The position numbers and the translations under genes are program-made. Of a stretch of DNA of 34,074 nucleotides, positions 1,041 to 34,074 are shown piece by piece. The notes under the pieces are model-generated. The model saw only the letters and a list, made by a program, of their open reading frames with translations, made no database searches and was not told the origin of the DNA. The stretch is from a virus. The stretch lies in the IMG/VR virus record IMGVR_UViG_3300017991_000264, positions 1 to 34,074 of that record, one strand, 5' to 3'. Position 1 is the first letter of the stretch. Each line of letters begins with the position of its first letter.

Positions 1041-1321
1041 TGGGCGGGCTATTAAGATTAGATGGAACCAAGAAGGGTCCGGGATTTTTGGGTCGACTTG
1101 ATCGACCTGATGGGGGTTACTCCACCGAACTTAGTATAGGGGTAGAATTTGACGGAAAAGAGGTTCAAATCCCATCACTGGTCCCAACCCTAACTCCAGG
1201 GGAAATCGAACTATTACTATCTGGGGGAGAAATAACTCCTGAAATAATTAATAAGGCTATCCAACACGCCAGAGATCGAATGTCCAAGGGTTTAAGTCCG
1301 TTCTATGAGGAGGGGGAATAG
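1040..1321 (+). CDS. Conserved small phage protein, function unknown
   Basis: The 93-residue product has a glycine-rich N-terminus and a central segment (GGYSTELSIGVEFDGKEV then IPSLVPTLTP) that looks like a small beta-rich module I associate with phage virion-linked proteins. The rest is helical. It starts at an ATG overlapping the previous stop (TAATG), and its own stop TAG runs into the GTG start of the terminase gene. No catalytic motif is visible. Confidence 0.6.
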   Translation: MGGLLRLDGTKKGPGFLGRLDRPDGGYSTELSIGVEFDGKEVQIPSLVPTLTPGEIELLLSGGEITPEIINKAIQHARDRMSKGLSPFYEEGE

Positions 1322-3742: not shown

Positions 3743-4252
3743 ATGGCAATCCCAGATTCCAGACCGCAACCGGAAATTGTAGACACCAGGGACAATGATC
3801 TGCCTGAGAGGGAGAGGATCGTCGACGAGTTCCTGGCCAATTTCAGACTCGTCAGTCTGTACGAGGAATACAATCGACGGGAGGCGAGAGATGACCTCCG
3901 AATGATTGCGGGGTTTGACCACTGGCCAGCTAAAGTCGCGAAGCAGAGGGAGGAGGACGGGAGGCCGGTCCTCACCGTCAATAAGCTCCCGTCATTCATC
4001 GATCAGGTCCTCAATGAAGCGAGGCTCAACAAAATTGGGATCAAGGTGATTGCCAAAGGCTCGGGCGCTACCAAGGAATTGGCCGACACCTACGAGGGAC
4101 TAATCCGCGAGATTGAGGACGACTCCAACGCGGACGTGGCTTACTTCCCGGACTTGAGGGTGGGGTCAATAACGGATTCGGGTACTTCCGGGTCGTCAGT
4201 GAATACGCAGATGACGAGGGGTTCGAGCAGGTCCTCAAGATCAAGAGGGTGA
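3743..4252 (+). CDS. Portal protein, N-terminal part (frame broken near 4147-4152)
   Basis: This frame encodes the first part of a P22-like portal, the dodecameric ring at the DNA entry vertex. Residues 1-136 look like portal sequence, for example FDHWPAKVAKQREEDGRPVLTVNKLPSF and then SNADVAYF. After about nucleotide 4150 the frame becomes serine/arginine-rich nonsense and stops at 4252. The portal sequence resumes in the frame one base back (GLEGGVNNGFGYFRV from about 4150). One extra G in the CCCGG run at 4147-4151 would restore a single reading frame of about 703 residues (3743-5853), close to the 725 of P22 gp1. See the next entry. Confidence 0.82.
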   Translation: MAIPDSRPQPEIVDTRDNDLPERERIVDEFLANFRLVSLYEEYNRREARDDLRMIAGFDHWPAKVAKQREEDGRPVLTVNKLPSFIDQVLNEARLNKIGIKVIAKGSGATKELADTYEGLIREIEDDSNADVAYFPDLRVGSITDSGTSGSSVNTQMTRGSSRSSRSRG

Positions 4253-12990: not shown

Positions 12991-13936
12991 ACTGTATCTA
13001 CCGCCACTCCCTCGGGGAGAGATGTACGTCGGTGGGATTATGACCATCGAGTGGCAAAACTTCTTCCGCGACCTGTACAATCGAGTCGGCGGGGAGTCCG
13101 GTCCAGTGGACCTGGAGGACCTCACCCAGCTCGTAGTGTCTCAAGCGTTCGGGACACCCCCCGCTGTTGAGGCACGGCTCAAGGCCCTCGAAAAGGCTGA
13201 GGCCATGTCTCCCGGCCCTCCCGTGGGGTACGAGAAGCGACTCGAGGCCCTGGAGCAGCGGTTCGGATCGCTCCCGCTGCCGACCGTGGGTCTCGCGAAG
13301 CGGATTGAGGCTCTGGAGAAGGCAATGGCCCCATCCCCGACCTCCAAGCCTCAGGGGCTAACCCTCGACTTTCTCGACTCTCGGGTTCCGTTCAACTACT
13401 ATCTGCCGACCCCGGTGTGGGATGACCTGAGGTTTCCCGTTGGGTCAGTTCGAGGGGGTGGGGCTTTCGACACGACACCGACAGCGTACAAAGGGGGGAT
13501 AGTGGAGGCCTTCTCAACCGGCCCCAACAATGAGTCGATCCAGTGGATAGCGCAATTGCCCCACGCGACGAAATTGAACCCGACCCTGGAATTTCATATG
13601 CACTATGTCCTTCCGGCGGCAGGTGCAGGTGCAGGTGTTGAGAACATCAAGTTTGATTTTACATATTCCTGGGCCGACATCAACGATTCGTTTCCAGCGG
13701 AGACATCGGAATCCGAGACCTTGGATGTCCAGTCCCTGTCCGCTGACACCCACTACCTGCTGGACTGGGATATTGATATGACGGGAGCGGGATCCGATGT
13801 CAGTTCGATCCTCATTTGTTCCCTGACACGGGACGTTGGAGTGGCTAACGACTATGCCAGTTCCGTTTACTTTTTGGAGGCAGACTTTCACATTCCCCTC
13901 GACACTTTTGGGTCCAGGGAAGAATACGTCAAATAA
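12983..13936 (+). CDS. Fibre-like protein with coiled-coil repeats
   Basis: The start is placed at GTG 12983, which has AAGGA eight bases upstream; a TTG at 12965 is in frame but has no good site. The protein (317 residues) has a short N-terminal anchor (YLPPLPRGEMYVGGIMTIEWQNFFRDLYNRV) typical of phage tail-tip proteins. Next come three spaced copies of a heptad-rich unit (ARLKALEKAE, KRLEALEQRF, KRIEALEKAM, residues about 61-115) joined by proline/glycine linkers, then a beta-rich C-terminal domain. Trimeric coiled coil then globular head is the usual fibre or needle layout. It may be the equivalent of the P22 needle by position, though the similarity is not direct. Confidence 0.65.
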   Translation: MTKLYLPPLPRGEMYVGGIMTIEWQNFFRDLYNRVGGESGPVDLEDLTQLVVSQAFGTPPAVEARLKALEKAEAMSPGPPVGYEKRLEALEQRFGSLPLPTVGLAKRIEALEKAMAPSPTSKPQGLTLDFLDSRVPFNYYLPTPVWDDLRFPVGSVRGGGAFDTTPTAYKGGIVEAFSTGPNNESIQWIAQLPHATKLNPTLEFHMHYVLPAAGAGAGVENIKFDFTYSWADINDSFPAETSESETLDVQSLSADTHYLLDWDIDMTGAGSDVSSILICSLTRDVGVANDYASSVYFLEADFHIPLDTFGSREEYVK

Positions 13937-20514: not shown

Positions 20515-22912
20515 GTTTTGGAGTTTTGTTGGTATAGCGGCAGCAGTCTACCTCGTCCTGCTTGTGGCATTCCACTCGTCGCTCGTCCTCGGAGCGACGA
20601 CAGCGACCCTGGCCCCCCAGCCCCTATTCACGGCTCTGGATGCTAACGGGGATCCATATGTTGGGGGCAAACTCTACACGTACGAGACCGGGACCACGAC
20701 TCCGAAAAGCACCTGGACAGACTCAACAAAGGGCAGTGCCAACGCGAACCCCGTAATCCTCGACTCTCGGGGCCAAGCGGACGTCTGGATTGACTCCAGT
20801 GATGGGGCATACCGATTCCGGCTCCTCGACTCCAGCGACGTCACTATCTGGACCGTCGACGGAATAAAGAGCGGAGATGACCTCTCGGCCCTCACGGCCT
20901 TAGTCCACCCGGACGTGGCGGACCTCGTGTCGATCTACGACAATTCTGCTTCCGCTGGTAAGGCCATTTCGGTCCTCAACCTGCTAGGGAACATCTGCTA
21001 CCCGAACTACGCTGCGGCAAACCATGGGGTCACTGGAAGCTCCGACACGATCAAGTATTGCGTCGACACCATCGGGTCTAACGGGGGAATAATCCGTTTG
21101 AGGAACAACTCCGGGTCTGCCCGGACTGAGTATGCCCTGGGGACAGCGGAGACGATCGGCGCGACTATCATCCTGAGTTTTGAGGAGGGAGCAGAAGTGA
21201 AGCCGGGAGCGGCTATTACCCTGACCCTGGCGAAGCCCGAGAACATAGAGGCCAGGAGCAAGCAGCAGATATTCGACCTCGCCAGCAACTCCACGACCCC
21301 TGTGGCCTTCACAGCCGGTGGCGTGGCCTACCCCGAGTGGTTTGGGGTCGACGGAACCGCCGATGACGTGCCGATAAACGCGGCGGTCACGGCTCTCCCC
21401 TCGGGGACAGTGCAGTTGCAGGAATACACCTATAACATAACCGCTGCCATTGCGATGAAGAGCAACGTCAACCTGAGGGGTCGGGGGGACTCCAGCCTCC
21501 TTCAAAACGGGGCGAACACGAACACTATCGAGATAGACGCAGACAACAACATCAGGATATCGGACCTCAAAATTGACGGACAAAAGGACACATATACATC
21601 GACCGTAGACACCAACTCTGGGATCCACGGACTCGCGAATGGGACAGGGTCTACTGGAATAACGATCGAGAACGTCTACATCATAGACATGGCAGTTTCG
21701 GGGATCCAAATCCTGGCTCAAACGGGGTCCCACTCAAGTGATGTTAAAATCGTGAACAATAGGATCCACGACTCTGGTGCACATGGAATTATAACCCAGG
21801 ATTACGTAGATGATGTCTTGATCCAGGGAAACCGAGTCGTCAACTGGGGCGACACCGTCGACAACCGAATTGCCATTGCGTCAGGTCGAGACAGTACAAA
21901 CCAGCAGATATTGGGCAATTATATCGAGTCAGACGGGAATGAGGGGGGAGTTTCCTGTCACGCCATATCCATCGACAGTTCCGACAACTTTGTCATTGCC
22001 AGTAACATTATAAATGGGACGAATGCCTACGGGATAGAGGTTGGGTTCAGCGAGAGGGGTGTCGTCTCCGGGAATGAGATCCACGGAACTGGGAGGGCCG
22101 GAATTACGGTCATTGGAGATGATACCACCAGTTTGATTTGTAACAATGTCTCGATTACTGGCAATAGCATCTATAATTCAACGCAACAGGGGATATACAT
22201 CAACGTCAACAATTACGTCGATGATACCCATCAGAATATTACGGTAACCGGAAATAACATCTTCGACGCCGGCAATAGCACCAACGTCGCTATCCACGTG
22301 CAGTACGTGACTAACTTCAACGTCTCAGTCAATACCATAGTGGACGCATACAAAGCGGCTATATATATCCAAAATGCGGACTATGGAGTTGTCTCCGGTA
22401 ACATGATCAAAAATGCCAACACCAGCGCAACTGCGGGGATGGATCAGGGGGTCGATTTGGTATCCTCGACCTACACGGTGGTCAACGGATATCTGATTCG
22501 GGATTTTACTGGAGTGTCGACGAGCGGCACTGGAGAGGATACCCTGCAGACCCTGACAATCCCGCAAAACTATGCGCAGGATTGGGCTGGGTTCAAAGTG
22601 AAGGCCTATGGCATCAAGACTGGATCCAACGGGAATAAAACCTTGAAGTTCCACTGGGGTTCAGGAGCATACACATTCAACGCAGCCGCAAATGACACAA
22701 ATGATTGGCTGATTGATGCCACGGTCTTGTTTAATTCCCAGGTGTCTCAGAGAGTATCATGGCTTGGGTGGAATGGGACAACCCCGCTCCAGGGGGTCGA
22801 AGCAGATACGGAGGATTTGTCTGCTGGGGCTATTGTCACGAAGATAACGGGGGAATGTGCCGACGCCTCAGACTCAATCATTATTACTGCCTGGATGGTC
22901 GAACTGTTCTAA
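20501..22912 (+). CDS. Tailspike-like protein: signal-like N-terminus, head-binding-like domain, beta-helix
   Basis: The 803-residue protein starts with basic residues and a hydrophobic stretch ending near residue 31 (VYLVLLVAFHSSLVLG), which looks like a signal peptide or anchor. Residues about 38-125 resemble the P22-tailspike-type virion-binding domain (PLFTALDANGDPYVGGKLYTYE; NPVILDSRGQADVWID). From about 270 to 650 it is a right-handed parallel beta-helix of pectate-lyase type, with repeated short strands such as ISDLKIDG, VKIVNNRIHDSGAHGI and VSGNEIHGTGRAGITV. The C-terminal 130 residues form a separate beta domain. It likely binds or degrades a surface polysaccharide of the host. The stop codon overlaps the convergent polymerase gene. 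Confidence 0.82.
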   Translation: MKRNKFWSFVGIAAAVYLVLLVAFHSSLVLGATTATLAPQPLFTALDANGDPYVGGKLYTYETGTTTPKSTWTDSTKGSANANPVILDSRGQADVWIDSSDGAYRFRLLDSSDVTIWTVDGIKSGDDLSALTALVHPDVADLVSIYDNSASAGKAISVLNLLGNICYPNYAAANHGVTGSSDTIKYCVDTIGSNGGIIRLRNNSGSARTEYALGTAETIGATIILSFEEGAEVKPGAAITLTLAKPENIEARSKQQIFDLASNSTTPVAFTAGGVAYPEWFGVDGTADDVPINAAVTALPSGTVQLQEYTYNITAAIAMKSNVNLRGRGDSSLLQNGANTNTIEIDADNNIRISDLKIDGQKDTYTSTVDTNSGIHGLANGTGSTGITIENVYIIDMAVSGIQILAQTGSHSSDVKIVNNRIHDSGAHGIITQDYVDDVLIQGNRVVNWGDTVDNRIAIASGRDSTNQQILGNYIESDGNEGGVSCHAISIDSSDNFVIASNIINGTNAYGIEVGFSERGVVSGNEIHGTGRAGITVIGDDTTSLICNNVSITGNSIYNSTQQGIYINVNNYVDDTHQNITVTGNNIFDAGNSTNVAIHVQYVTNFNVSVNTIVDAYKAAIYIQNADYGVVSGNMIKNANTSATAGMDQGVDLVSSTYTVVNGYLIRDFTGVSTSGTGEDTLQTLTIPQNYAQDWAGFKVKAYGIKTGSNGNKTLKFHWGSGAYTFNAAANDTNDWLIDATVLFNSQVSQRVSWLGWNGTTPLQGVEADTEDLSAGAIVTKITGECADASDSIIITAWMVELF

Positions 22913-25554
22913 AGGGTTGGGGTCCAGGACTTCATGGACCCCCACTTCTTCCCGACTTTGAAATCAACATCGAGTGGGACCTGGAAACCCTTGGGTCCCA
23001 CGCTCTCCATTACTGCCTTGATCTCTGGAATAACAACTGGGATCAGAGGCTCCGCCATTTCCCAGACGATATCGTCGTGAATCTGAATGAGGGGGCGGAC
23101 CTCTCCATCCCAGGGGCGGTAGACTGGAACGAGCTGCCCCATAGCCTCCTTTATTACCCCCTGTGCCCCCATCTGAATCGGGGCATTCCCCGCTTGCCTC
23201 TCCGCCTCGATCCGGATCCACTTGTTCGTACTCCTTATCCCTGGGATGTACCGAATCCGACCCCAGCAGTCTCGGACGTAACCTCGACGCTTGGCCATCT
23301 CACCATTCCGCTTCATGTAGGCCGCAATGCCGCTGTAGATCTGGAACCAAGACTGTATCATGTCCTCACAATCCGCAACAGTCCAATCCCCGGCCCGTGA
23401 GACCGCCAGTTCCCTCTGCAATCCCTGGGCCGAAATCAAGTTGAGGATGCCGAATCCTACACGTTTCGCGGGATACCGATGCTTCATCTCGTCGAGGTCC
23501 GAGACCGGAACACCAAACATGTCGGACGCTGTCATTGAGTGGATGTCCAGGCCCTCGTGGAAGATCCGGAGCATCTTGGGGTCCTTGGACTCCGACGCGG
23601 CCACTCGCATCTCCACCTGGGCGTAGTCCCCTGAGACCAGGACGTTGCCCTCCTCGGCCTCGTAGCAGTCCCGGACCATGCGGCCTTCCTCCGACCTCAC
23701 CGGCTGGGCCATCAGGTTCGGGTCGCTCGACGAGAGCCTTCCGGTGGCAACCCTCGTGATCCGGAGGGTCGTGCGGACTCTCCCGTCCGACTCGACCTTC
23801 TTGGGGATAGTGTCGGCGTAGCTCGTCTTGAGCTTCTGGTACTGCCTCCACTCGATGATCTTCGCGACGATTGGGTGGAGACCGAGGTAGCGGGAGAGGA
23901 TATCATTCGCCGTGGACTTGTTCCCTCCCTTCTTCGCCCGAAATCTTCCCCCTTTCTCCGGGAGCCGAAGGACGTCATAAATGAGCCGCGACATTTGGGG
24001 ATAGGACAGAGGGCTTATTGCTTGCCCCTGCAGGTGATGTCCAACCATCTTCTGCATCGACTTGGCAATCGTGTCCATCCACTCCTGAAAATACTGGCTG
24101 AGCCTCTTGAAGGCCTGGAGGCTCACGGGCATCCCATTCGCCATCATGTCCACGACCATGGGGACCGCCCTCATATCTCGTCGGAAAGTATCCTCGAGGC
24201 CCATTGATTTAATGCGTCCCATAAGGAGTGGGTAGAGTCGAATTGTTGCATCCGCGTCTCGAGCGGAGTAGTGGATTGCCTCTGCCCTTGGGATGTCACT
24301 AAGGTCAGCTTCTCGCAGGGGTCCAAGCAGATCCACGACTTGCTCGGTCCCGTCCATTTTGCGCCAACGGGACCAAGGATCCACATCCTGTCCCTCTGCA
24401 ATCTGTGTGAGCAAGCGGCTAACTTTCCTTGTGATGTTCTGTGGTTGTCTGACATGCGGTTCTCCTTTCCGCCACTCGAGGACGGGTTCGGGGTCGGGCC
24501 ATTCGAGAGAGGCGACGGTCTCGAGGTAATCCAGGGCCATCTCCCGCGTCCTGGCCCCAACCATCTCCTGATAGGCACTCATCTCCATCCCCAAGTGCCT
24601 GAAGGCGAGGGGTTTGAGGCCCTGGGGTTCCGACTGCAGGAGATAGGCCATGACCATCGTGTCATCTATCCGGGCCGGTTCGATCCCCATCTGGGCAAGC
24701 ACCGGGATGTCGTAGAGCGAGTTGTGGATGGCTGTCCGTACCCCACGGGAGGCCAAGGAGACCCCCAGAGCCTCGAGGGCCGAGCCAGAGGCCGCGTCCA
24801 CGACCCAGGCCTTTCCGGGGACTACGGAGAAGCTAAGACACCAAGGCTTCTCCCGCGCCCACTCCGTGTCCACAGCCACGACCCCTGGGACATACCAATC
24901 CTCGCCCTCCAGGGCAAATCGGACGTCTGTTGGGGTTTTGGCCTCCCGGTAGACCTCCCGCCCTTTCCACTCGTCCGTTGGGGGATGAGGCTCGATCTTG
25001 CCCTTGAAGGTGTCCCCTGCGGCCTTCATGTCGACGTGGAATAGGATCATCTGCTCCGGACTGTGCATACCCGCTGCGGGGTGGTAGGATGGAAGGACCG
25101 TGGTCTCGAACCCGAGGACGTTGACCGGCCTCGGGATCCCGTGGACCAGCTCCATGGAGACGTCCCCGAGAAAGAAGCGGGTGCTGAGTCGGCCCATGGT
25201 GATGATCAGGCGCGGCTGCAGTTCCAGGATCTTGGGGATGAGATGGGCCTCGGCACAGGCGAGGATCTCGTCCCGGTGCGGGTCCCGGTTCCCCTCCGGA
25301 TGGCATAGGCAGAGGTTCGTGAGCCAAACCCCATGCCTCGAGAGTCCGTTGATGTTCAGGTGATCTCGTGCCTCTTGTCCGGACGCACCAATGAGAGTCC
25401 TTCCGCTATCATTCTCTTCATTTCCTGGTGCCTCCGCAACCACGAGAATTCGGGGATTATGTCCGACCCTTCCTCCGTGTTCCTCTCCCCAGCAGATGCG
25501 CTTTCGGCTTTCGCACAACTCAGGACACAGGTCGCAATAGTTCCGGTGTTTCAT
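22909..25554 (-). CDS. Uracil-DNA glycosylase (family 4-like) fused to family A DNA polymerase
   Basis: The start at ATG 25554 has GGAGG six bases upstream; an earlier in-frame ATG lacks this. The protein is 881 residues. Residues 1-190 look like a family 4 UDG: cysteines 7, 10, 84 and 100 for an Fe-S cluster, AEAPGNEE (40-47), SYHPAAG (156-162). Residues 220-435 are a 3'-5' exonuclease with Asp229/Glu231, Asn278/Asp282 and Tyr429/Asp433. The polymerase part has SGDYAQVEMR (Asp643), the O-helix RYPAKRVGFGILNL (Arg693, Lys697, Phe701) and IHDD (826-828). The O-helix has Asn705 where family A enzymes normally have Tyr, and about 74 extra residues lie between Exo II and Exo III. In a purZ genome it is the candidate 2-aminoadenine polymerase (DpoZ-like). 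Confidence 0.93.
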   Translation of the reverse strand: MKHRNYCDLCPELCESRKRICWGEEHGGRVGHNPRILVVAEAPGNEENDSGRTLIGASGQEARDHLNINGLSRHGVWLTNLCLCHPEGNRDPHRDEILACAEAHLIPKILELQPRLIITMGRLSTRFFLGDVSMELVHGIPRPVNVLGFETTVLPSYHPAAGMHSPEQMILFHVDMKAAGDTFKGKIEPHPPTDEWKGREVYREAKTPTDVRFALEGEDWYVPGVVAVDTEWAREKPWCLSFSVVPGKAWVVDAASGSALEALGVSLASRGVRTAIHNSLYDIPVLAQMGIEPARIDDTMVMAYLLQSEPQGLKPLAFRHLGMEMSAYQEMVGARTREMALDYLETVASLEWPDPEPVLEWRKGEPHVRQPQNITRKVSRLLTQIAEGQDVDPWSRWRKMDGTEQVVDLLGPLREADLSDIPRAEAIHYSARDADATIRLYPLLMGRIKSMGLEDTFRRDMRAVPMVVDMMANGMPVSLQAFKRLSQYFQEWMDTIAKSMQKMVGHHLQGQAISPLSYPQMSRLIYDVLRLPEKGGRFRAKKGGNKSTANDILSRYLGLHPIVAKIIEWRQYQKLKTSYADTIPKKVESDGRVRTTLRITRVATGRLSSSDPNLMAQPVRSEEGRMVRDCYEAEEGNVLVSGDYAQVEMRVAASESKDPKMLRIFHEGLDIHSMTASDMFGVPVSDLDEMKHRYPAKRVGFGILNLISAQGLQRELAVSRAGDWTVADCEDMIQSWFQIYSGIAAYMKRNGEMAKRRGYVRDCWGRIRYIPGIRSTNKWIRIEAERQAGNAPIQMGAQGVIKEAMGQLVPVYRPWDGEVRPLIQIHDDIVWEMAEPLIPVVIPEIKAVMESVGPKGFQVPLDVDFKVGKKWGSMKSWTPTL

Positions 25555-25915
25555 GCGGGTCCTCCAACCAGCAGATGGGTTTGTTATGGGACCGGGCGTA
25601 CTCGATTTCCCGCTCCGTCGATTCCCCGACATACCCCTCAACGTTCAGGACCAGGATGTAGTCCGCGAGGTCGATCTTCCTGAAGTGTAACACGTCGAGC
25701 TTCGCTTTGGCAAGACGTTTTGCCTCCGGAATAAAGGTCTCAAAGATGTCGTCGTCCGGAATGCTGCAGCCTGGGGCCAGGACGATTTCCCCGTTGAGGG
25801 TTCGGTCCATTGACGCGGCTTTGAAGGCGTCCGAGAATCGGGTGGATCCGCAAAGGCAAACGACTCGCGGCCTGTCCATTGGGGGGAGCTTCCCCCTTGC
25901 ACCTAAAGTGTTCAT
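25520..25915 (-). CDS. Nucleoside 2-deoxyribosyltransferase-like protein
   Basis: The 131-residue protein has the fold signature of the nucleoside deoxyribosyltransferase/DUF4406 group: VVCLCGSTRF (19-28), the central helix with EAKRLAKAKLDVLHFRKI, then ADYILVLNVEGYVGESTERE with IEYARSHNKPI after it. Relatives move or remove deoxyribose on purines and pyrimidines, but many phage members are uncharacterised. GGAGAGGTAAT precedes ATG 25915, which overlaps the upstream stop (ATGA); Met13 is an alternative start. It overlaps the polymerase start by 35 bases. Since the window also carries purZ, a role in the nucleotide pool is attractive but unproven. Confidence 0.72.
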   Translation of the reverse strand: MNTLGARGKLPPMDRPRVVCLCGSTRFSDAFKAASMDRTLNGEIVLAPGCSIPDDDIFETFIPEAKRLAKAKLDVLHFRKIDLADYILVLNVEGYVGESTEREIEYARSHNKPICWLEDPHETPELLRPVS

Positions 25916-26188: not shown

Positions 26189-26356
26189 TTAGTCGATGAT
26201 CACGTTGTCCCGGTACTTGTCCAGGATCTCCGCGATCTGGTTACGGAGCCATGGCCCCTGAAGTTTCGGGTGGCGTCCAGTTGCGCCCCGGAGCTTTGCC
26301 TTATCCAGGACCTCGTCCAGTTCCGCGATTAGTGCTTTCAGTTTTGGATCATTCAT
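26189..26356 (-). CDS. Small hypothetical protein (55 aa)
   Basis: A 55-codon frame runs from ATG 26356 to the TAA at 26191-26189. GGAGGAATA precedes the start, which overlaps the stop of the ERCC4 nuclease gene as TAATG. The product starts MNDPKLKALIAELDEVLDKA and ends NQIAEILDKYRDNVIID, two amphipathic helices around a glycine-containing turn. Coupling and a good ribosome site argue that it is real. Function is unknown. Confidence 0.72.
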   Translation of the reverse strand: MNDPKLKALIAELDEVLDKAKLRGATGRHPKLQGPWLRNQIAEILDKYRDNVIID

Positions 26357-27078
26357 TATTCCTCCCCGTCCCGCTGGGATACGATCGACTCCGCCATTTT
26401 AGGGCCGATCCCGTTAAGTTTTTGGAAGTCGGAGGCCTCAGCCCCCATGAAGCTCCAGATGTCGGGGAACGCGGCCCCGATCTCCATCGCCCTTCTCCAG
26501 CCGACACCCTCGAACTGAGCTGCTATCCTCGAAACCAGTGATGGCTTCGTCAGTTTCGGGCTGTCCGGACCTCGATGCCATTGGAGATGCGACCGGTGCC
26601 GGTCCCAGGGCTTCTGCCACCAGCGGTAGCATGAGTCGAGCCAATTGGCCGTCTCCCACTTATTTGAGGTCGAGACGCAGACGACGTTGCAGATGACTTG
26701 GAGCGTGTTGACGTAGGAGTAGACGTCCCGCGCCATGAATCGGCGGGAGCCTTGGGACGCCGCAATCCACTTTCCGCCGCGACCTATCCGCTGAAGAATG
26801 CCGGATTCCCGGTCCGGACGCCAGATCCCCTCGATGATGAGGTAGGGCGTATCGTAGTTTTGGAGAAGGCCGACGAGTTGATGGCCGCTGAGTCGTCCGG
26901 TGACCATGGAGTTGAGGAAATCGAGAAGGGACTTGCGTTCGACTCCGACGATGGACTCCCCCTCTGGGCCTTGACCGACCCAGGAGAAATCGGCGAATTC
27001 CAGGTAACATGTGACACTGGGGGTGGACAGAAGAGGAGCAAGCTCTCCCGATCCGGTCCGCTCATCGACAAGGATCAT
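26356..27078 (-). CDS. ERCC4-type nuclease with C-terminal helix-hairpin-helix
   Basis: The start at ATG 27078 is fixed by GAGGAGGAAAG directly upstream; a longer frame from 27150 has no such site. The 240-residue protein opens MILVDERTGSGEL (Asp5, Arg7) and has the ERCC4 core motif GVERKSLLDFLNS (Glu47, Arg48, Lys49, Asp53), so the XPF/MUS81-type metal-binding site is intact. The C-terminus carries a helix-hairpin-helix (LNGIGPKMAESIVS, about 222-235) for DNA binding. Such nucleases cut branched or forked DNA and are found in phages near Sak4-type genes. Here it lies three genes downstream of the Sak4-like ATPase. Confidence 0.87.
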   Translation of the reverse strand: MILVDERTGSGELAPLLSTPSVTCYLEFADFSWVGQGPEGESIVGVERKSLLDFLNSMVTGRLSGHQLVGLLQNYDTPYLIIEGIWRPDRESGILQRIGRGGKWIAASQGSRRFMARDVYSYVNTLQVICNVVCVSTSNKWETANWLDSCYRWWQKPWDRHRSHLQWHRGPDSPKLTKPSLVSRIAAQFEGVGWRRAMEIGAAFPDIWSFMGAEASDFQKLNGIGPKMAESIVSQRDGEE

Positions 27079-27268
27079 CTTTCCTCCTCTTTCTTTTGGG
27101 GTCGTGGATCCCCAGGCCCCTAACCCCAGTGAATTTGGAGCCGGGGGCATTAGCTATTTTGGCGTCAAAGACCCTGTGACATTTGTCGCACATTAGGGTC
27201 ATCCTGTCAGGCCTACGGTCAGGAACGGATACGTAGCGTCCTCCGCATCTGCATCCACTCGGCATCAT
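27062..27268 (-). CDS. Small zinc-ribbon protein
   Basis: The product (68 residues from ATG 27268) has CRCGG at residues 6-10 and CDKCH around 27-31, two paired-cysteine knuckles of a zinc ribbon, then a basic C-terminal tail (DPKRKRRKDDPCR). AAGGGGGTGAT precedes the start, and the ATG overlaps the upstream stop (ATGA); a second ATG follows at once. It overlaps the ERCC4 gene by 17 bases. It could bind DNA or act as a partner of the neighbouring nuclease, which is inference. Confidence 0.66.
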   Translation of the reverse strand: MMPSGCRCGGRYVSVPDRRPDRMTLMCDKCHRVFDAKIANAPGSKFTGVRGLGIHDPKRKRRKDDPCR

Positions 27269-27476: not shown

Positions 27477-28217
27477 CTATTCCCAGGTGTCGGGGGGCAG
27501 CATCGGCAAGACCACGGCCCCAAGCCCCTGAAAGTTGCACATGTCCCCCTCCAGTTCAAAGCCCATTAGGTCCGGGTCATGCCGACAGTCCTGAATCGTG
27601 AGAGTGAACCCCTCCTCGTCGTAGTGGTCGATTTGAGCGTTGACCTGGACTAGGTACCCCGTGTCCTTGAATCCGGAGCGAGTCCACTCCCCGGTCGGAG
27701 CTGCCTTCGGCCCGTTCCCCGAGTAGACCTCTTTCATCTTGTGGAGCAGGACGAGGTTCTTGTCCCAGTTGAATGCCTCCCGGATCAAAGCGCGGTACTC
27801 GGCATTGACGGGTCCGTACTGATACGGCATGACCTGAGTCAAGCGTCCGAACCGGGCCATCCGGAGGAGTTCCCAGACCTCCGTCGCGGTGTCCACGACC
27901 ATTGTCCGGATATAGTTGCTCCGGAGCATAGCCTTGAAGGCGGTCTCGAACCGGTCCCACTCGTCCTCCGCGTCGGTCTCCTCGTTCTCGACTCGAGCGA
28001 CTTCGAGGACGTGGATCTCCTTGTCCCCGGTGAATTTGCCGACGACCCCCTCCATGCCGATGTCCGCATTGAAGTATGCGATGGGTCCTGGGGCTGTCAT
28101 CGCAAAATGCGACTTCCCCTGCTTCTCGTGACCGGACACTGACACGATCAGTCGGGGCTTGACCCCAATCTTCTTTGCGTCCGTGAATCCGGCCTTTTGC
28201 ATCATGGCTTTAGTCAT
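27477..28217 (-). CDS. Sak4-like RecA-fold recombination ATPase
   Basis: The 246-residue protein has a Walker A motif GHEKQGKS (29-36) after a beta strand (RLIVSVS) and a Walker B-like strand TMVVDTATEVWELL about residues 105-118, the core of the AAA_24/Sak4 group. Sak4 proteins are single-domain RecA/Rad51 relatives that promote strand annealing with their phage ssDNA-binding protein. GGAGGAACTAA precedes the ATG. Neighbours fit this: a candidate ssDNA-binding protein, two nucleases and a helicase all in the same leftward transcript. Confidence 0.85.
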   Translation of the reverse strand: MTKAMMQKAGFTDAKKIGVKPRLIVSVSGHEKQGKSHFAMTAPGPIAYFNADIGMEGVVGKFTGDKEIHVLEVARVENEETDAEDEWDRFETAFKAMLRSNYIRTMVVDTATEVWELLRMARFGRLTQVMPYQYGPVNAEYRALIREAFNWDKNLVLLHKMKEVYSGNGPKAAPTGEWTRSGFKDTGYLVQVNAQIDHYDEEGFTLTIQDCRHDPDLMGFELEGDMCNFQGLGAVVLPMLPPDTWE

Positions 28218-28461: not shown

Positions 28462-28685
28462 AGCGTCTCCCCCTTATGCCAAGTCTGGAAGTCGGCCTCA
28501 GTCAAGTGATCGGATTCGGGTATATCTTTTATGAGATGTTTATGATGATGACACGCAAAATCCCCGGTATGTCGGGCCGATATTCCGGCCTTTCTCCAAA
28601 TGGCGTCGACCTTCTCCGGTTTGCAGTGGTCGCAGTATATGTTTCCCGCCCTTTCCCTCTCCTTGTTTTTGATCATCCTTATCAT
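28458..28685 (-). CDS. Small Cys/His-rich protein
   Basis: The start is placed at ATG 28685 because it overlaps the nuclease gene stop as ATGA; the ribosome site (GAGGGACAA) is modest. The 75-residue product holds YCDHC (18-22) and a downstream CHHHKH cluster (about 45-50), a plausible metal-binding or HNH-like small fold. I see no full HNH motif, so the activity is left open. Upstream and downstream genes are both coupled to it. Confidence 0.6.
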   Translation of the reverse strand: MIRMIKNKERERAGNIYCDHCKPEKVDAIWRKAGISARHTGDFACHHHKHLIKDIPESDHLTEADFQTWHKGETL

Positions 28686-29230
28686 TTGTCCCTCGCTCTC
28701 AGGATCATCTCCCAATTCCGCTCCAGCTCCCGTTGGGTAAACACGATCCGGGAGACTCGGTAGATGGGGCCAGAGCCTTTATAGTCTCCCATGCAGTGGA
28801 AGATCCTCATGATCCCGACCGTAGTGTCCAGGGCGTAGCAGTAGGACTTGAGCTGCAGCATGTAGTGGAGCTGCTCGGTCGGACAGGACTTGGTGCTCTT
28901 CCAGGTGAATTTCACTTCCTCCACGACGAGGGGGACGATCCCCGCTGGGTCCGGCCCGATTCCGTCCGGGGCAAGCCAGATACCGTCCTTCTGGATCTGT
29001 GGTGGCTTGAAGATGTACTTGTCCGCCATGCAGCGGGAATAGATCTCCTCCCAGAGGGTCCCGATCTCCGCTGTCAGTTCCATGTCGGTGAAGCCCCCCT
29101 TGCCCTTCCAGTAACCCATGTCCTTGAGAAGGGGTCGGGTGAGATCCGACAGGTGCGTCCCCTTTTGCCTTGGTTCGTCGTCGGGCCAAATGACCCCTGG
29201 CCAACGTTCATCTACAGTTTCGACTTCCAC
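28682..29230 (-). CDS. RecB/Cas4-like PD-(D/E)XK nuclease
   Basis: The protein carries the RecB-family nuclease elements in order: a helix with MELTAEIGTLWEEIY, then PDG (in LAPDGIG), EVK in VVEEVKFTWK, and the QxxxY motif in EQLHYMLQLKSYCYAL. It probably degrades or processes DNA ends. The start is uncertain. GTG 29230 forms TAGTG with the upstream stop and has GGAG eight bases ahead. ATG 29257 lies only after AGGACGG, and an ATG at 29338 would overlap the previous gene heavily. From 29230 the product is 182 residues. No Fe-S cysteine cluster of Cas4 type is visible. Confidence 0.8.
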   Translation of the reverse strand: MEVETVDERWPGVIWPDDEPRQKGTHLSDLTRPLLKDMGYWKGKGGFTDMELTAEIGTLWEEIYSRCMADKYIFKPPQIQKDGIWLAPDGIGPDPAGIVPLVVEEVKFTWKSTKSCPTEQLHYMLQLKSYCYALDTTVGIMRIFHCMGDYKGSGPIYRVSRIVFTQRELERNWEMILRARDK

Positions 29231-29496
29231 TAGCGTTTCTCCATCCAGCCGATGCATCCGTCCTGAGAGCAGGAGCCAGCCGTAGCCCGATCGTAGGACG
29301 TATAACGCCAGTAGGCGAGATGTCCGCAGACGGGGCACGGGGAAGTCCCGGCCTCGCTCTCAGGGCCACATTGAGCCTTGATTGATTCGATCAGTTTCTC
29401 CGTTTCCTCTAACTTGAACTCTTCCCAACTGTTGTCCACATCTATCAGTTTCTCCGTTTCCTCTGATTTGAACTCTTCCCAAATGTCATCTGGCAT
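29230..29496 (-). CDS. Zinc-ribbon protein with an 18-residue tandem repeat
   Basis: The 88-residue protein starts after AGGAGAACTGAC. Its N-terminal part holds two copies of an 18-residue unit (WEEFKSEETEKLIDVDNS and WEEFKLEETEKLIESIKA), likely amphipathic helices. The C-terminal part has CPVCGH (54-59) and a second pair at CSQDGC (75-80), a zinc ribbon like those in phage ssDNA-binding or primase-linked proteins. Its stop TAG overlaps the nuclease GTG. The recent duplication is visible in the DNA too. Confidence 0.7.
   Translation of the reverse strand: MPDDIWEEFKSEETEKLIDVDNSWEEFKLEETEKLIESIKAQCGPESEAGTSPCPVCGHLAYWRYTSYDRATAGSCSQDGCIGWMEKR
29390..29485. repeat. Direct repeat, 54-base period, inside the zinc-ribbon gene
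   Basis: ATCAGTTTCTCCGTTTCCTC starts at 29390 and again at 29444, and TTGAACTCTTCCCAA follows in each copy. The 54-base offset equals 18 codons, so the repeat keeps the reading frame and makes the tandem WEEFK units. Confidence 0.85.
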
Positions 29497-29545: not shown

Positions 29546-30355
29546 TTAAGCCGAGACCAGGGTCCCGTCGTCGTATTCCCAGGGGCCTTCGGCCAGGAAC
29601 TCGTCATCGAACACCAACTTGACGACCGCATTCCGGTCCGGGTCGGTCTTCATGACCTGGAAGATCTTCGCGGGGAGTTCTTTCTTCGTCACGGTCCCTG
29701 CGTCCTCCAGGATCTCTAGGATAGCGGCTACGGCCTTGGCCCCGACGTCATCATCTCCGGCCTCCTCCTCTACCTCTTCGGCCTCGGGTTTGGCCTTGGC
29801 CTTGGCCTTGGCCTTGGCCTTCGGTTTCGCTTTGGCTTTGGCCTTGGACTTCGGCTTCTCCTCGTCCTCTTCCCACGGCAGGGTCAGGATTTCTCCGATC
29901 ACCAAAATGGTCTTTTCGTAGACCTTGCCATCGGCGCGGGGCTTTTCCTTGATTCCGGTCCGTTTGGGGGCCGGGATTTGGATCACGTGAGCCTTCATTC
30001 CGTCGAGGCTGGAGATGTCGTCCCCCAGCTTGTCAACCGGGAATCCAGCGTCTATTAGGGACTTCAGGAGGATCCCACCGTTCGACGTCATCCGAATGGC
30101 CGTAGCCGATCCGATTGCCTCCAGGGTCGTCCCATCCTCAGACGGCTCCCAATCCTCCGGTTTGCCCATGGAGTAGTACTGGACCACTTCCTCGCCTTCG
30201 GGGTCCGTCATGTGCAGGGCCAGTGCCGGAACGCCGGGGATCACGGTCCCGTTATAGTCAAACAACTCAAATCGGGCCTTGTCGATAGTCACGTCAACGT
30301 CGTCGATAAGGCCTCCGCCCTCTACAAAAGTCTCGGGGTTTAATGAAATTCCCAT
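29546..30355 (-). CDS. Candidate ssDNA-binding protein with Lys/Ala linker
   Basis: The 269-residue protein has AAGGAGAAGTAAC before its ATG. Residues 1-165 are beta-rich and look like a globular domain of a family I associate with phage Sak4 neighbourhoods (YYSMGKPEDWEPSEDG; GSATAIRMTSNGGILLKSL; IPAPKRTGI). Residues about 168-190 are a Lys/Ala/Pro repeat (KAKAKAKPKAKAKAKAKAK), followed by an acidic run (EAEEVEEEAGDDD) and a C-terminal helical domain of winged-helix type (LEDAGTVTKKELPAKIF). The ssDNA-binding role is inferred from gene order and layout. An alternative is an accessory protein of the helicase or ATPase. Confidence 0.6.
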   Translation of the reverse strand: MGISLNPETFVEGGGLIDDVDVTIDKARFELFDYNGTVIPGVPALALHMTDPEGEEVVQYYSMGKPEDWEPSEDGTTLEAIGSATAIRMTSNGGILLKSLIDAGFPVDKLGDDISSLDGMKAHVIQIPAPKRTGIKEKPRADGKVYEKTILVIGEILTLPWEEDEEKPKSKAKAKAKPKAKAKAKAKAKPEAEEVEEEAGDDDVGAKAVAAILEILEDAGTVTKKELPAKIFQVMKTDPDRNAVVKLVFDDEFLAEGPWEYDDGTLVSA

Positions 30356-30412: not shown

Positions 30413-31954
30413 TCAGATTCCTCCTTTCATGGGTTTAGGGATTGTAGCCATCTGCCTGTATGCCCCGCTGAACCAGCCAGGGAGCAGGTCTTGGTGTTTT
30501 GGTATCCACCACTGAATGTTGTTGTCCAGGACAAAGCACTCGGCCCAATCAGTCTCGGACCGGACCGCACGTCCAGCGGCCTGGACCAGGAGCTGAGCGA
30601 TGAGGTAAGGCACGTACATCTTGTCCGCTTTGTCCCGCGTCTTCATGATGTTCCCCCGAAGGTCGGGGTAGGGGACTTTGACGATTATCTGCCATCGGCA
30701 CTGGTCCTCGGGGAAGTCCCATCCGGTAGCCATGGACGGGGAGACGAGGATCGAGGGACTGTCCGGTTCTTTGAACCAGCGGACCGCACTCTCCGCACTC
30801 TTGGTGTCGTGGGTCATCATCTCATCGGAGTATCGGCTCCGCTCCATGACGAAGTCCCTCCGGGCATAGGACACGGTGTGGATGATGCCCTTCGTCCCGA
30901 GCCTCGGCTTTATTATCTGGTCAATCTTGTTGATCCAGAGGCGCTGCTCCAGGTCCGTGATCCGAAAATTCATCCGGACTGTGGGCAGGTGCGTGACGCG
31001 TCGATTCTCCACGGGGAAGGAGGACGGGTAGGTCTCAAACTTCGCGTCCTCAACCTCGATCCCCAGGAGGCTTGCGGTCTTTGGCACGACCGTGGCACTT
31101 GTCAGGAGAATTTTCGGGATCTTGAGGAACAGGAAGTCCTCAGAGTAAGGCCCAGGCCATGTCGGCTCAAGCTCGACGCGGTAATCGTCCATGACCCAAA
31201 TCCAGTCGGGGGAGATCGTCTCGAGCCTCTCCAACTTCCCCATTAGTTTGCGCAGGGACAGGACGAGCTTCGTCTTTCGGTTGTCCACGGCCCGATCATG
31301 CTCTATGCGAAGGCCCTGGAGCCTCGACTCGGCCCAAGAGGCCCATCCGCTGTGGCTTGAGGGCAAGGACCCCTTCAGGCCCAGCCTTGATTCCTCGAAC
31401 TTGTACTTCTTGCTGAACCCGACGCCTATGTGGTCGATTAAATGCCCCGGAGCCGCGTGTGCCTCGTCGAGCACCAGCAGGTCGAATTCTCCAAGCCCCG
31501 TGCCGTATTCGTTCTGAGACATCCAGTAGGCATAATTGGTGACGACCACCTTCGACTTTCGGGCACGTCGGACCAGATCGTAGTACGTGCAGCCCCCCTC
31601 GTCCCTCAGGGCGCACTTTGCCCCGAAGGCACAAATCCCCGCGTCACAGGTCACCTTCGTGTTCAGTCGGCAGGGATAATTCCCCCGGCCCCTGATGTCC
31701 AGGGCGAGGCCCTCAAACTCTGAGGCCAATTGCGACTGCAGGCCCTTCGTCGAGGTCAGGATGACGGTTCGGCCCTCTATAAGCTGGGAGGCCGTGACAT
31801 ACGTCAGGCTCTTGCCGAAGCCCGTGGGGCAATTTTGGATGAGGAATCGAGGCTCGGGGTCTGTGATCCGCTCACAGGCCCTATCCTGTCCCTTCCTCCA
31901 GGATGTGAATTTGTCCGGAAGCCCGAAGGCGACCGGTGGTGGAAGCCGCTCCAT
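30413..31954 (-). CDS. DinG/XPD-like superfamily 2 DNA helicase with Fe-S cysteines
   Basis: The 513-residue protein has PTGFGKS (43-49, motif I), DEAH (163-166, motif II), and QAAGRAVR near 470 (motif VI). Between motifs I and II lie cysteines 95, 103, 108, 114 and 122, as in the Fe-S domain of DinG/XPD helicases, and VVVTNYAYW (137-145) is typical of this group. Such enzymes unwind 5'-tailed DNA, D-loops or R-loops. GAGGAGG lies eight bases before ATG 31954. It sits early in the leftward transcript. No other replicative helicase or primase was recognised in the window, so it may be the main replication helicase. Confidence 0.88.
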   Translation of the reverse strand: MERLPPPVAFGLPDKFTSWRKGQDRACERITDPEPRFLIQNCPTGFGKSLTYVTASQLIEGRTVILTSTKGLQSQLASEFEGLALDIRGRGNYPCRLNTKVTCDAGICAFGAKCALRDEGGCTYYDLVRRARKSKVVVTNYAYWMSQNEYGTGLGEFDLLVLDEAHAAPGHLIDHIGVGFSKKYKFEESRLGLKGSLPSSHSGWASWAESRLQGLRIEHDRAVDNRKTKLVLSLRKLMGKLERLETISPDWIWVMDDYRVELEPTWPGPYSEDFLFLKIPKILLTSATVVPKTASLLGIEVEDAKFETYPSSFPVENRRVTHLPTVRMNFRITDLEQRLWINKIDQIIKPRLGTKGIIHTVSYARRDFVMERSRYSDEMMTHDTKSAESAVRWFKEPDSPSILVSPSMATGWDFPEDQCRWQIIVKVPYPDLRGNIMKTRDKADKMYVPYLIAQLLVQAAGRAVRSETDWAECFVLDNNIQWWIPKHQDLLPGWFSGAYRQMATIPKPMKGGI

Positions 31955-31957
31955 GCT

Positions 31958-32497
31958 CTAATCCTCCTCTCGATCCTCTAAACTGGTTAACTGCAATGTC
32001 CTCCTCTGCTTTGGGCTGAGGATCGATCCGAATCGGGCCATCATCTCCTCCACGAACCTCTTCTCCAGATATCCGTCCAGGTTGGGGCTTACGGATCTAT
32101 AGTATCGAAGGACCACTCGAGGCGCATCCTCCGGTCGGCTTCGGACTATGGACTCGAGCCGGTTCATCATGGCCATCATCTCCGTGATCCTCTCCTCTTC
32201 CCTCAGGATCTCCTCCTCCGCTTTGATTAATCTCATCTGCCTCTCAATTTCGGGGTCCTTGTCCCTCCTCCGGAGCCACTCCATGTGCCGGTGCACCGCA
32301 TGCCGGAATAGGTCCCCCTTGACCCGATACGGGTACTTCCCCCCTTGCACCACCTCCTCTATCAGCCTCGACATCTTCGGGACGAACCTGAACCACGCCT
32401 TGGCAGTATGTCCGCTGGTGTCGGTGGCTGAGACTATCCACTCCTCCCTCTTGTCTCTCTCTTCCTCAAAATCGAAAATGTTCGCGTCTCGGCCCAT
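31958..32497 (-). CDS. Hypothetical helical early protein
   Basis: The 179-residue protein has AAGGAGAGAGA before its ATG. Its N-terminal half has a small beta/alpha region (EEWIVSATDTSGHTAKAWFRFVP) and a helix with YPYRVKGDLFRHAVHRHMEWL, which looks like a DNA-binding or ribbon-helix-helix-like surface. A long, charged, possibly coiled helix follows (IERQMRLIKAEEEILREEER). No exact family is recognised. Being second in the operon, right after the repressor, it may be regulatory or replicative. Confidence 0.6.
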   Translation of the reverse strand: MGRDANIFDFEEERDKREEWIVSATDTSGHTAKAWFRFVPKMSRLIEEVVQGGKYPYRVKGDLFRHAVHRHMEWLRRRDKDPEIERQMRLIKAEEEILREEERITEMMAMMNRLESIVRSRPEDAPRVVLRYYRSVSPNLDGYLEKRFVEEMMARFGSILSPKQRRTLQLTSLEDREED

Positions 32498-32506
32498 TCT
32501 CTCTCC

Positions 32507-32770
32507 TTACTTTCCCCCTGGGTTGTGGTCGTTGTGAATCAGGAATCCGCGCCTCCGGATCCCGTCGATAAGGTCGTCCTTGCCAATTCCCAGGCACTCA
32601 GCCAGAACCTCTGCGCACTTGAGGCTCGGGTTAGTCTTCCCGTTGAAGACTCGGGACATGTGACTGAGGCTATATCCGCTGGACGCGGCGAGCCTCGTCA
32701 GGTTGACCTCTCGGTTTCTCTTGACAAATTTCTTGCGCACACCAATAGTCATTTCAATCGACTGCTGCAT
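32507..32770 (-). CDS. XRE/Cro-CI-type transcriptional regulator
   Basis: The start at ATG 32770 is fixed by GGAAGGAGGAACCAA just upstream; the longer open frame to 33445 runs through the control region and the opposite gene and is rejected. The 87-residue protein has a lambda-repressor-like helix-turn-helix (about 23-65: NLTRLAASSGYSLSHMSRVF then KTNPSLKCAEVLAECLGI). It has no protease or oligomerisation domain, so it is Cro-like in size. It lies at the start of the leftward operon beside a divergent promoter pair and probably regulates one or both. Confidence 0.85.
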   Translation of the reverse strand: MQQSIEMTIGVRKKFVKRNREVNLTRLAASSGYSLSHMSRVFNGKTNPSLKCAEVLAECLGIGKDDLIDGIRRRGFLIHNDHNPGGK

Positions 32771-32818
32771 TTGGTTCCTCCTTCCGGGAATTCGCGCTCT
32801 CTTCGCGCTCAAAGGCCC

Positions 32819-32847
32819 ATTATACCGCGCCTCACGGCGCTCCGCAA
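32819..32847 (-). promoter_or_regulatory. Leftward sigma70-type promoter (early operon)
   Basis: On the minus strand TTGCGG (32847-32842) lies 17 bases ahead of a perfect TATAAT (32824-32819). It is about 50 bases upstream of the repressor start. The -35 matches the consensus at its first three positions. Confidence 0.68.
32827..32840. promoter_or_regulatory. Inverted repeat in the leftward promoter, operator candidate
   Basis: GCGCC-TCAC-GGCGC is a perfect five-base inverted repeat placed exactly between the -35 and -10 boxes of the leftward promoter. This is a usual place for a repressor site, and the XRE protein is the first gene controlled. Binding is inferred. Confidence 0.5.
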
Positions 32848-32853
32848 GCCCCC

Positions 32854-32882
32854 TTGGCGGACGACGCGCCCCCTGGTATAAT
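32854..32882 (+). promoter_or_regulatory. Rightward sigma70-type promoter (purZ operon)
   Basis: TTGGCG (32854-32859) and TATAAT (32877-32882) are 17 bases apart, giving a strong-looking promoter. It would give a leader of about 140 bases before the ATG at 33032. Confidence 0.75.
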
Positions 32883-32887
32883 AGGGG
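32870..32887. promoter_or_regulatory. Inverted repeat around the rightward -10 box
   Basis: CCCCT and AGGGG flank GGTATAAT, so the -10 element sits in the loop of a perfect five-base palindrome. It could be a repressor operator. It is shorter and different in sequence from the palindrome in the leftward promoter. Confidence 0.45.
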
Positions 32888-33031
32888 TGTTGAGGGCAGG
32901 ATTCCCCCGCTCGAAGCGCAGGAAATCCCCCCTCGAGAGCCGCAGCGCCCACGCGCATAATGCGGTGTACCATCCAACAGTAAAAGGACGGAGCGCCCAC
33001 CGCGCAAACCCCGGTGGCGCAGGAGGAACCA

Positions 33032-33376
33032 ATGCCGCACAGGAAATTCATCGTGACCCCTGAGGTCGTCAGGGACTTCAATCCGACCTGGGAGCAGAGA
33101 ATCCGGCTCCTGGAAATTGAACGTCTCCTCGACGATACTGGGCCGACGGGTCCTTACCGCTGGGAGCGCAGGAAATTGATGCGCGAGAAGGATCGGATCT
33201 GGAAGAGGGCCTCCGGTCGAGACGTGAACTTTATCGTGACGGGCGACCCCACGGGGAAGGCCCGTCCGAAGAAATGGCAGATGGCTGCATACCGCAGATG
33301 GAAAAGAATCATAGCCGCTCGAGACGGGGAGAGGGATCAGGAGATCCTGGACCTGATCGAGCAAGAGGAGGAATGA
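33032..33376 (+). CDS. Unknown protein encoded directly upstream of purZ
   Basis: ATG 33032 has GGAGGAACC right ahead and is preferred to an in-frame start at 33014. The 114-residue product is charged and helical (TWEQRIRLLEIERLLDD; RWERRKLMREKDRIW) with a central short beta piece (GRDVNFIVTGDPTG) and a basic KARPKKWQMAAYRRWKR segment, ending in an acidic helix. No family is recognised. It is co-transcribed with purZ: its stop is one base before the purZ ATG. It could be a nucleic-acid-binding or nucleotide-related protein, but nothing shows this. Confidence 0.7.
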   Translation: MPHRKFIVTPEVVRDFNPTWEQRIRLLEIERLLDDTGPTGPYRWERRKLMREKDRIWKRASGRDVNFIVTGDPTGKARPKKWQMAAYRRWKRIIAARDGERDQEILDLIEQEEE

Positions 33377-33377
33377 A

Positions 33378-34074
33378 ATGACTGAGTTTTTGAAGAGAGG
33401 GAAGTTCAACATGATCGTGGGAGCACAAGCGGGTTCGGAGGCCAAGGGGAAACTGAGCGCCTACCTCTGCGAGAGGGAGGATCCGATCCTGTTGGTAATG
33501 ACCGCCTCGCCCAACGCGGGGCATACGGCAGTGATCCGGGGGAAGAAGTACGTGTCGTACCACCTGCCGATCGGATCGGTGGCTTGCGATGCCCGAATCG
33601 TGCTCGGCCCCGCGTCTCTAATCAACCCGGACGTGCTGGAGAAAGAGATCAAGGCTCTGGGGATCCGACCCGGACGCGTCATTCTCGACGAGAGGGCAAG
33701 CATCATAACCCTAGGGCACATGTCTAATGAGAAGAAGGGACACCTGGTGTCGATAGGCTCGACCCTGCAGGGGATAGGTGAATGCCGACGGGGAAAGATG
33801 CGTCGGGACAGGTACCATATCCTTGCCCGAGAGTACCGGGATATCCTCCAGCCGATGGGGGTTGATGTCAAGCCTAACGTCTCCGGCCTGATCAACGCGA
33901 ACCTGGAGCTGGACCGGAAGGTCCTCTGTGAAGGGACCCAGGGCTTCGACCTGGACCTGGAGCACGGCATCGACCCGATCTACTGCACGTCCAAGATGAT
34001 CAACCCCGCAATGATGATGGCTGAGGCCGGGGTGCCCGTGTCCTCCGCCGGGGAGATCTGGGGAGTCCTCCGAC
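33378..34074 (+). CDS. purZ: PurZ-type adenylosuccinate synthetase (2-aminoadenine pathway), cut by window end
   Basis: The frame runs from ATG 33378 (GAGGAGGAATGAA just ahead) to the window edge without a stop: 232 complete codons. The start aligns with PurA: MIVGAQAGSEAKGK corresponds to GTQWGDEGKGK. The PurA catalytic Asp (Asp13 in E. coli) is Ser here, the change described for PurZ. Other synthetase features are kept: SPNAGHT (with the His of the active site), LGPASLINP, GSTLQGIGECRRGKMRR (phosphate/IMP-loop region) and CEGTQGFDLDLEHGIDPIY. PurZ joins aspartate to dGMP with ATP energy, giving N6-succino-2-amino-dAMP, which host enzymes turn to dZTP. About the last third of the protein is beyond the window. 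Confidence 0.93.
   Translation, partial: MTEFLKRGKFNMIVGAQAGSEAKGKLSAYLCEREDPILLVMTASPNAGHTAVIRGKKYVSYHLPIGSVACDARIVLGPASLINPDVLEKEIKALGIRPGRVILDERASIITLGHMSNEKKGHLVSIGSTLQGIGECRRGKMRRDRYHILAREYRDILQPMGVDVKPNVSGLINANLELDRKVLCEGTQGFDLDLEHGIDPIYCTSKMINPAMMMAEAGVPVSSAGEIWGVLR

Follow-up and report, generated by a model that had tools for sequence, protein, structure and literature searches.

The window, the whole stretch of DNA analysed here, is a 34,074-base virus fragment from IMG/VR. An ORF at its 3' end (33378-34073, plus strand) stays open up to the end of the fragment and encodes 232 residues (MTEFLKRGKFNMIVGAQAGSEAKGKLSAYL...SPNAGHT...CEGTQGFDLDLEHGIDPIYCTSK...GVLR), which include ...IVGAQAGSEAKGKL... 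SPNAGHT ... CEGTQGFDLDLEHGIDPIYCTSK...; roughly the last third of the protein, at its C-terminus, is absent owing to the contig end. Profile searches matched the protein to Pfam PF00709 (E 9e-28), to NCBIfam PRK04293 (1e-42) and amino_Aden_PurZ (3e-39), and to phrog_1211 of PHROGs. Both NCBIfam scores lie below the full-length cut-offs, as would be expected for a truncated protein. Ser20 (TCG, 33435) aligned to Asp13 of Escherichia coli PurA and to Ser23 of S-2L PurZ. These matches and this alignment bear out the initial annotation, which had described an adenylosuccinate-synthetase frame with serine at the catalytic aspartate of PurA, and show that 33378-34074 is the start of a PurZ-type adenylosuccinate synthetase gene.

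Table 1. Features of the window, with coordinates and the basis of each assignment
Feature	Position	Strand	Remarks
DNA polymerase: N-terminal uracil-DNA glycosylase (UDG) domain (residues 61-195), 3'-5' exonuclease and PolA	22909..25641	-	candidate Z-DNA polymerase
Codon AAC, polymerase Asn734	23440..23442	-	helix-O tyrosine site (E. coli Pol I Tyr766; phiVC8 DpoZ Phe459)
ERCC4-type nuclease (c111)	26356..27150	-	Pfam, clustering
AAA_24/Sak4-like ATPase (c149)	27477..28217	-	sub-threshold Pfam, clustering
Conserved protein c196	28682..29338	-	nuclease-like solely from gene order; without a Pfam match
Conserved replication-cassette protein c195	29546..30355	-	clustering
DEAD/Rad3-type helicase (c194)	30413..31954	-	Pfam, clustering
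Conserved protein c193	31958..32497	-	15 genomes (gene clustering)
HTH_3 regulator, divergent from purZ	32507..32755	-	C-terminal part of long ORF 32507-33445; weak PF01381 match
Small ORF immediately upstream of purZ, same strand	33014..33376	+	similarly placed ORF (c64) in 8 relatives; window ORF did not cluster with c64
purZ, 5' 232 codons	33378..34074	+	open into contig end; Ser20 codon 33435-33437 replaces PurA Asp13; homologues L003, L005-L009, L024-L035

Homologues of purZ, mostly full-length copies, were found on about 18 related metagenomic contigs by scans of IMG/VR and a genome collection. The IMG/VR scan yielded a full-length enzyme of 369 aa (L003:390-1499) with 61 % identity to the window fragment, and further homologues were L005-L009 and L024-L034. 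The L003 contig has a terminase gene, homologous to window positions 1321-2754, 7.5 kb past purZ and therefore extends over a region like the one that the window lacks. The sole match in the genome collection (L035, JAUXIH010000023.1) leaves the host unsettled; this close purZ cassette lies on an 11-kb contig binned in a Dehalococcoidia MAG, which is either a possible hint of the host or a misbinning.

Active-site residues were compared in an alignment of this clade with PurZ of S-2L, VP5 (phiVC8-type) and Acinetobacter, Klebsiella and Burkholderia phages, four PurZ0 enzymes and PurA. Residues S23, T273 and Q308 of S-2L PurZ are PurZ-specific and interact with substrates, with Q308 (N297 in phiVC8) contacting the adenine of dATP/ATP (PMC8342488). 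Serine at the S23 position was invariant across the window's clade. The full-length relatives, frameshifted L008 apart, have Thr at the T273 position (Gly in PurA) and Asn at the Q308 position (Asn297 in phiVC8, but Asp in both PurA and PurZ0); both positions fall past the end of the window fragment and were read in the relatives only. The side chains of the S-2L dGMP pocket, as listed in PMC8342488, that lie within the fragment (G22, S23, N49, A50, G130, S131, T132, R146, Q190, Y203, C204 and T205) are all identical in the window protein. Because of the Ser, Thr and Asn at these three positions and the identical pocket, the substrates of the clade are predicted to be dGMP and ATP or dATP. An AlphaFold2 model of the full-length L003 protein (pLDDT 82, pTM 0.86) had Pyrococcus horikoshii PurA (5k7x), S-2L PurZ (7odx) and phiVC8 PurZ (6fko) among its best PDB matches, which confirms the predicted fold; PurA and PurZ are not told apart by fold.

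Phylogenetic trees were reconstructed in three builds, and in each the window's enzymes formed one group (support 99-100/99-100), as did the PurZ and PurZ0 groups. The full-length relatives clustered with PurZ and away from PurA, in agreement with the proposed PurZ homology; clustering of the full protein with cellular PurA, named initially as the result that would speak against it, was not seen. In the most widely sampled tree, Asp-bearing PurA was split from every Ser-type enzyme (100/99), and PurZ0 from a group made up of the clade, PurZ, L010 and the enzyme of a Bacillus phage (99/97). AU tests in a smaller tree rejected neither a grouping of the clade with PurZ0 (P=0.115) nor one with PurA (P=0.10), and the deep branching order of PurZ, PurZ0, PurA and the clade is therefore held loosely. 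Two phage subgroups, PurZ and PurZ0, have been described in NCBI viruses (PMC12884076); in these trees, the window's clade is a separate branch outside both. It also departs from PurZ0 in that its relatives have Asn, not Asp, at the NTP-base position and in lying outside the clade of Wayne and Ghobes.

At least two further deep groups of Ser-type, PurZ-like enzymes were seen, comprising L172, L173 and L175 (G055, G057 and G044) and L174/L176 (G038 and G031), with the motifs GSEGKGA, GSESKGL, GSEAKGM and GSSGKGK and a helix-O Thr or Phe in the polymerase. In a 64-kb phage (L102, G029:C1:25570-27126, minus strand), an intein-like insertion lies inside the active-site motif of PurZ (YC / TSK).

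With PurZ of S-2L and phiVC8, the clade shares the serine for Asp13, the Thr at T273, an Asn/Gln at the ATP-base position, the dGMP pocket and the same side of the tree (99/97). It stands apart at about 30-36 % identity, with the motif GSE[AS]KGK versus GSTGKGL. S-2L and phiVC8 have DatZ/MazZ, whereas DatZ was not found in the window's lineage, and the polymerase is UDG-PolA versus DpoZ-2 in phiVC8 and PrimPol in S-2L. PHROGs matches of the window to a portal (phrog_156), major head protein (phrog_283), head closure (phrog_578) and, weakly, ejection protein (phrog_598) support the P22-like podovirus virion genes noted initially. With a separate branch and neither DatZ nor DpoZ-2 in its lineage, the phage is nevertheless not simply phiVC8-like. 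PurZ0 of Arthrobacter phage Wayne and Gordonia phage Ghobes shares the GSEAKG motif and the presence of a DUF5664 gene but keeps Asp at the NTP-base position, forms its own clade (100/100), is accompanied by DutZ, DmtZ, DUF5664-1 and DpoZ-1, and occurs with a polymerase unlike that of the window's lineage. The compact fold is shared with archaeal PurA (5k7x), the best structural match by E-value, which differs in Asp13, Gly at the T273 position, Asp at the GTP-base position and IMP as substrate. The 'PurA' of Bacillus phage vB_BpsS-140 is Ser-type, with 34 % identity to L003 and Asn at the NTP-base position, but has Ala at the T273 position and comes from a genome in which no PolA was found. 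An IMG/VR scan for relatives of this enzyme (L012) found none; the phage, in which it is annotated as purA, has adenylate kinase, dut and recA and gave no DatZ match.

Gene clustering over 20 contigs revealed a common cassette of PolA, ERCC4 nuclease, AAA ATPase, c196, c195, helicase, c193 and HTH, followed by purZ on the opposite strand. In most of the relatives' contigs, a DUF5664 gene directly follows purZ (for example L004:1493-1957 and G002 13041-13532); the window ends before the place of any gene downstream of purZ. DUF5664 corresponds to PF18909, the N-terminal domain of dATP/dGTP diphosphohydrolase, with matches above cut-off in seven tested proteins (E 1e-9 to 3e-18). MazG (PF03819) was present in two clade contigs only, G016 and G017, where it lies within the cassette and takes the place of a DUF5664 gene after purZ. 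Three PurZ-positive contigs (G013, G031 and G055) had neither by Pfam. Among the larger contigs, DUF5664 was present in 12 of 17 PurZ-positive versus three of 12 PurZ-negative records, so that it is enriched in PurZ-positive contigs and is not exclusive to them. A search for DatZ (PF13023, HD_3) detected three positive controls and gave no match in any clade record covered. One DUF5664 enzyme that has been characterised yields monophosphates from both dATP and dGTP (PMC12884076), and such an activity would provide substrate for PurZ and at the same time draw down dATP.

At the usual place of DUF5664, G013 has a different small protein (24907-25233, minus strand) that overlaps the purZ stop. 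In G018 (L033:4143-4766, plus strand), DUF5664 is fused to a DUF7768/nucleoside-deoxyribosyltransferase (NDT)-like domain, while G004, G005, G016, G017 and G020 carry separate NDT/DUF4406-like genes (cluster c948). These genes may recall DmtZ of PurZ0 phages.

The window's polymerase lies outside the DpoZ-1 and DpoZ-2 clades and belongs to a clade of its own (100/99). Like DpoZ of phiVC8 (DpoZ-2) and Wayne (DpoZ-1), it is of the PolA family with an exonuclease and has the helix-O Tyr replaced; DpoZ-1 and DpoZ-2 differ in their place on the tree, have no reported UDG domain and have Phe at this position, which is Asn in the window and its clade and Asn, Thr or Phe in the UDG-PolA family. Helix O aligned without ambiguity at the sequence level. 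This position is Phe in two families of Z-selective polymerases (PMC8599892). The UDG-PolA family was collected from IMG/VR by motif (55 contigs), the helix-O residue was read and each contig was searched for PF00709; all the PF00709 enzymes with a readable motif had Ser. Among contigs of at least 25 kb, the residue was non-Tyr in 18 of 18 with PurZ (13 Asn, three Thr, two Phe) and Tyr in 12 of 12 without (Fisher test, P=1.2e-8, uncorrected for kinship). The helix-O column, picked from the literature before the column scan, was the only one of 433 alignment columns that perfectly separated PurZ-positive from PurZ-negative contigs. Among the shorter contigs, nine lacked PurZ yet had a non-Tyr residue; these are fragments of 5.8-20.8 kb.

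The polymerase tree requires at least six changes of PurZ state. All four independent pairs on well-supported branches went in the same direction; if every branch is allowed, the number of possible pairs is six. With four pairs the sign test gave P=0.125 and cannot reach 0.05. Common descent as the sole cause of the pattern was set aside in view of the several changes on the tree and the lack of any other column alike, although the pair test is underpowered. The PurZ-negative contigs may be incomplete, but truncation was rejected as the reason for the lack of purZ in Tyr contigs, given that those of at least 25 kb all agree and that one of them, G062, covers the syntenic site. This 25-kb contig has Tyr and sits inside the window's own polymerase subclade. 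It keeps ERCC4, AAA, c196, c195, helicase and HTH, then c314/c287, and between helicase and c314 it has no purZ, DUF5664 or c193. In G050, the same interval contains c193, HTH, c64 and purZ ahead of c314, with DUF5664 at 23191-23445. A scan with the Tyr-type polymerase as query recovered the query and a single near neighbour, and nothing else.

The helix-O rule holds without exception only inside the motif-defined UDG-PolA family because G019 (L034) and Streptomyces phage Galactica, which has a Ser-type PurZ0, combine a Ser-type enzyme with a Tyr polymerase. The G019 enzyme was near PurZ0 in one tree and unplaced in the widest. No PolA was found in S-2L, vB_BpsS-140 or the record of L010. The PolA of G019 (L188) is 1165 aa long with an intein-like insertion. 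A literature search, with poor coverage of subscription journals, found no relevant paper tying a UDG-PolA fusion to Z-DNA, and novelty is thus unproven.

Phages with PurZ swap one base of the genetic alphabet, using 2-aminoadenine (Z) instead of A. In the window's phage, PurZ would join dGMP to aspartate at the expense of ATP (or dATP); the product, N6-succino-2-amino-dAMP, would be converted to dZTP by enzymes of the host. The DUF5664 pyrophosphohydrolase adjoining purZ most likely supplies dGMP and removes competing dATP, and the window's copy would sit just beyond the contig end. The UDG-PolA polymerase, with helix-O Tyr changed to Asn, would then copy the genome with Z for A. The suggestion of Z-DNA in the initial annotation is thus supported, short of proof, by the position of the clade on the PurZ side, the dNTP pyrophosphohydrolase gene next to purZ in relatives and a helix-O residue that tracks PurZ. 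The gene is a genuine purZ, and we consider it quite probable that the phage makes Z-DNA, most likely through a third, separately adapted replication module. Homology, residues, trees, gene neighbourhood and covariation are established here, whereas the enzyme activities, Z in the virion DNA and a causal role of helix O are inferred. That UDG-PolA repeatedly became a Z-DNA polymerase by a helix-O change from Tyr to Asn, Thr or Phe on gain of purZ, with Tyr kept or regained in its absence, is favoured by a modest degree.

An auxiliary metabolic gene is a highly improbable reading of this locus, in which a phage PurA would boost the host's adenine supply, the phage DNA would contain ordinary A and the serine would be incidental. 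For the truncated protein, the archaeal PurA model PRK04293 does score slightly above the model for PurZ, archaeal PurA is the top fold match of the L003 model and a grouping of the clade with PurA survives the AU test in the small tree; however, the serine is invariant clade-wide, PurZ-type residues occupy the T273 (Thr) and NTP-base (Asn) positions and the wider tree parts Ser from Asp enzymes (100/99). The adjoining DUF5664 gene also speaks against it, and the covariation with the polymerase would be left without a reason.

Synthesis of dZTP might be followed by partial replacement of A, or by starvation or poisoning of host replication, with a phage polymerase that tolerates A. The lack of a detected DatZ-type dATP triphosphohydrolase is consistent with this, and PurZ alone could yield a mixed pool. 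It is nevertheless improbable, as characterised DUF5664 enzymes hydrolyse dATP besides dGTP (PMC12884076) and the helix-O Tyr is replaced in exactly the PurZ-positive phages of the UDG-PolA family, which suggests that their own polymerase copes with Z. The helix-O column is a correlation only, and some relatives have extra NDT/DUF4406-like genes; the change could be an adaptation to another trait linked to purZ, such as a base modification of another kind or a shift in dNTP pools, Z being only an intermediate. To this we give scarcely any credence, since Phe occupies the same position in the two Z-selective polymerase families (PMC8599892) and the shared gene set revealed no further base-modification enzyme common to PurZ-positive contigs.

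With Z-DNA as the preferred reading, the window represents a third PurZ/polymerase lineage, in which the presence or absence of purZ predicts the helix-O residue across many contigs, and it adds possible enzymes for Z-DNA synthesis. Natural matched pairs are provided by G062 (Tyr) and the window's group (Asn, as also in G002), G052 (Tyr) and G057 (Thr), and G063 and G006. If the proposed adaptation is true, the helix-O position would be a near-general requirement for Z-DNA replication that can be studied in such pairs of close relatives.

Restriction-site avoidance was uninformative, with GATC at expectation (218 in the window versus 218.7 expected) and CTAG strongly under-represented in the whole window (19 versus 54.5). 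The earlier reading of no avoidance of GATC was therefore correct, but its count of five in the first 480 nt of purZ should be eight. The portal gene of the window (3743-5853) lies in two overlapping frames (3743-4252 and 4249-5853) and is single in most relatives, reflecting either a sequencing error or a real frameshift.
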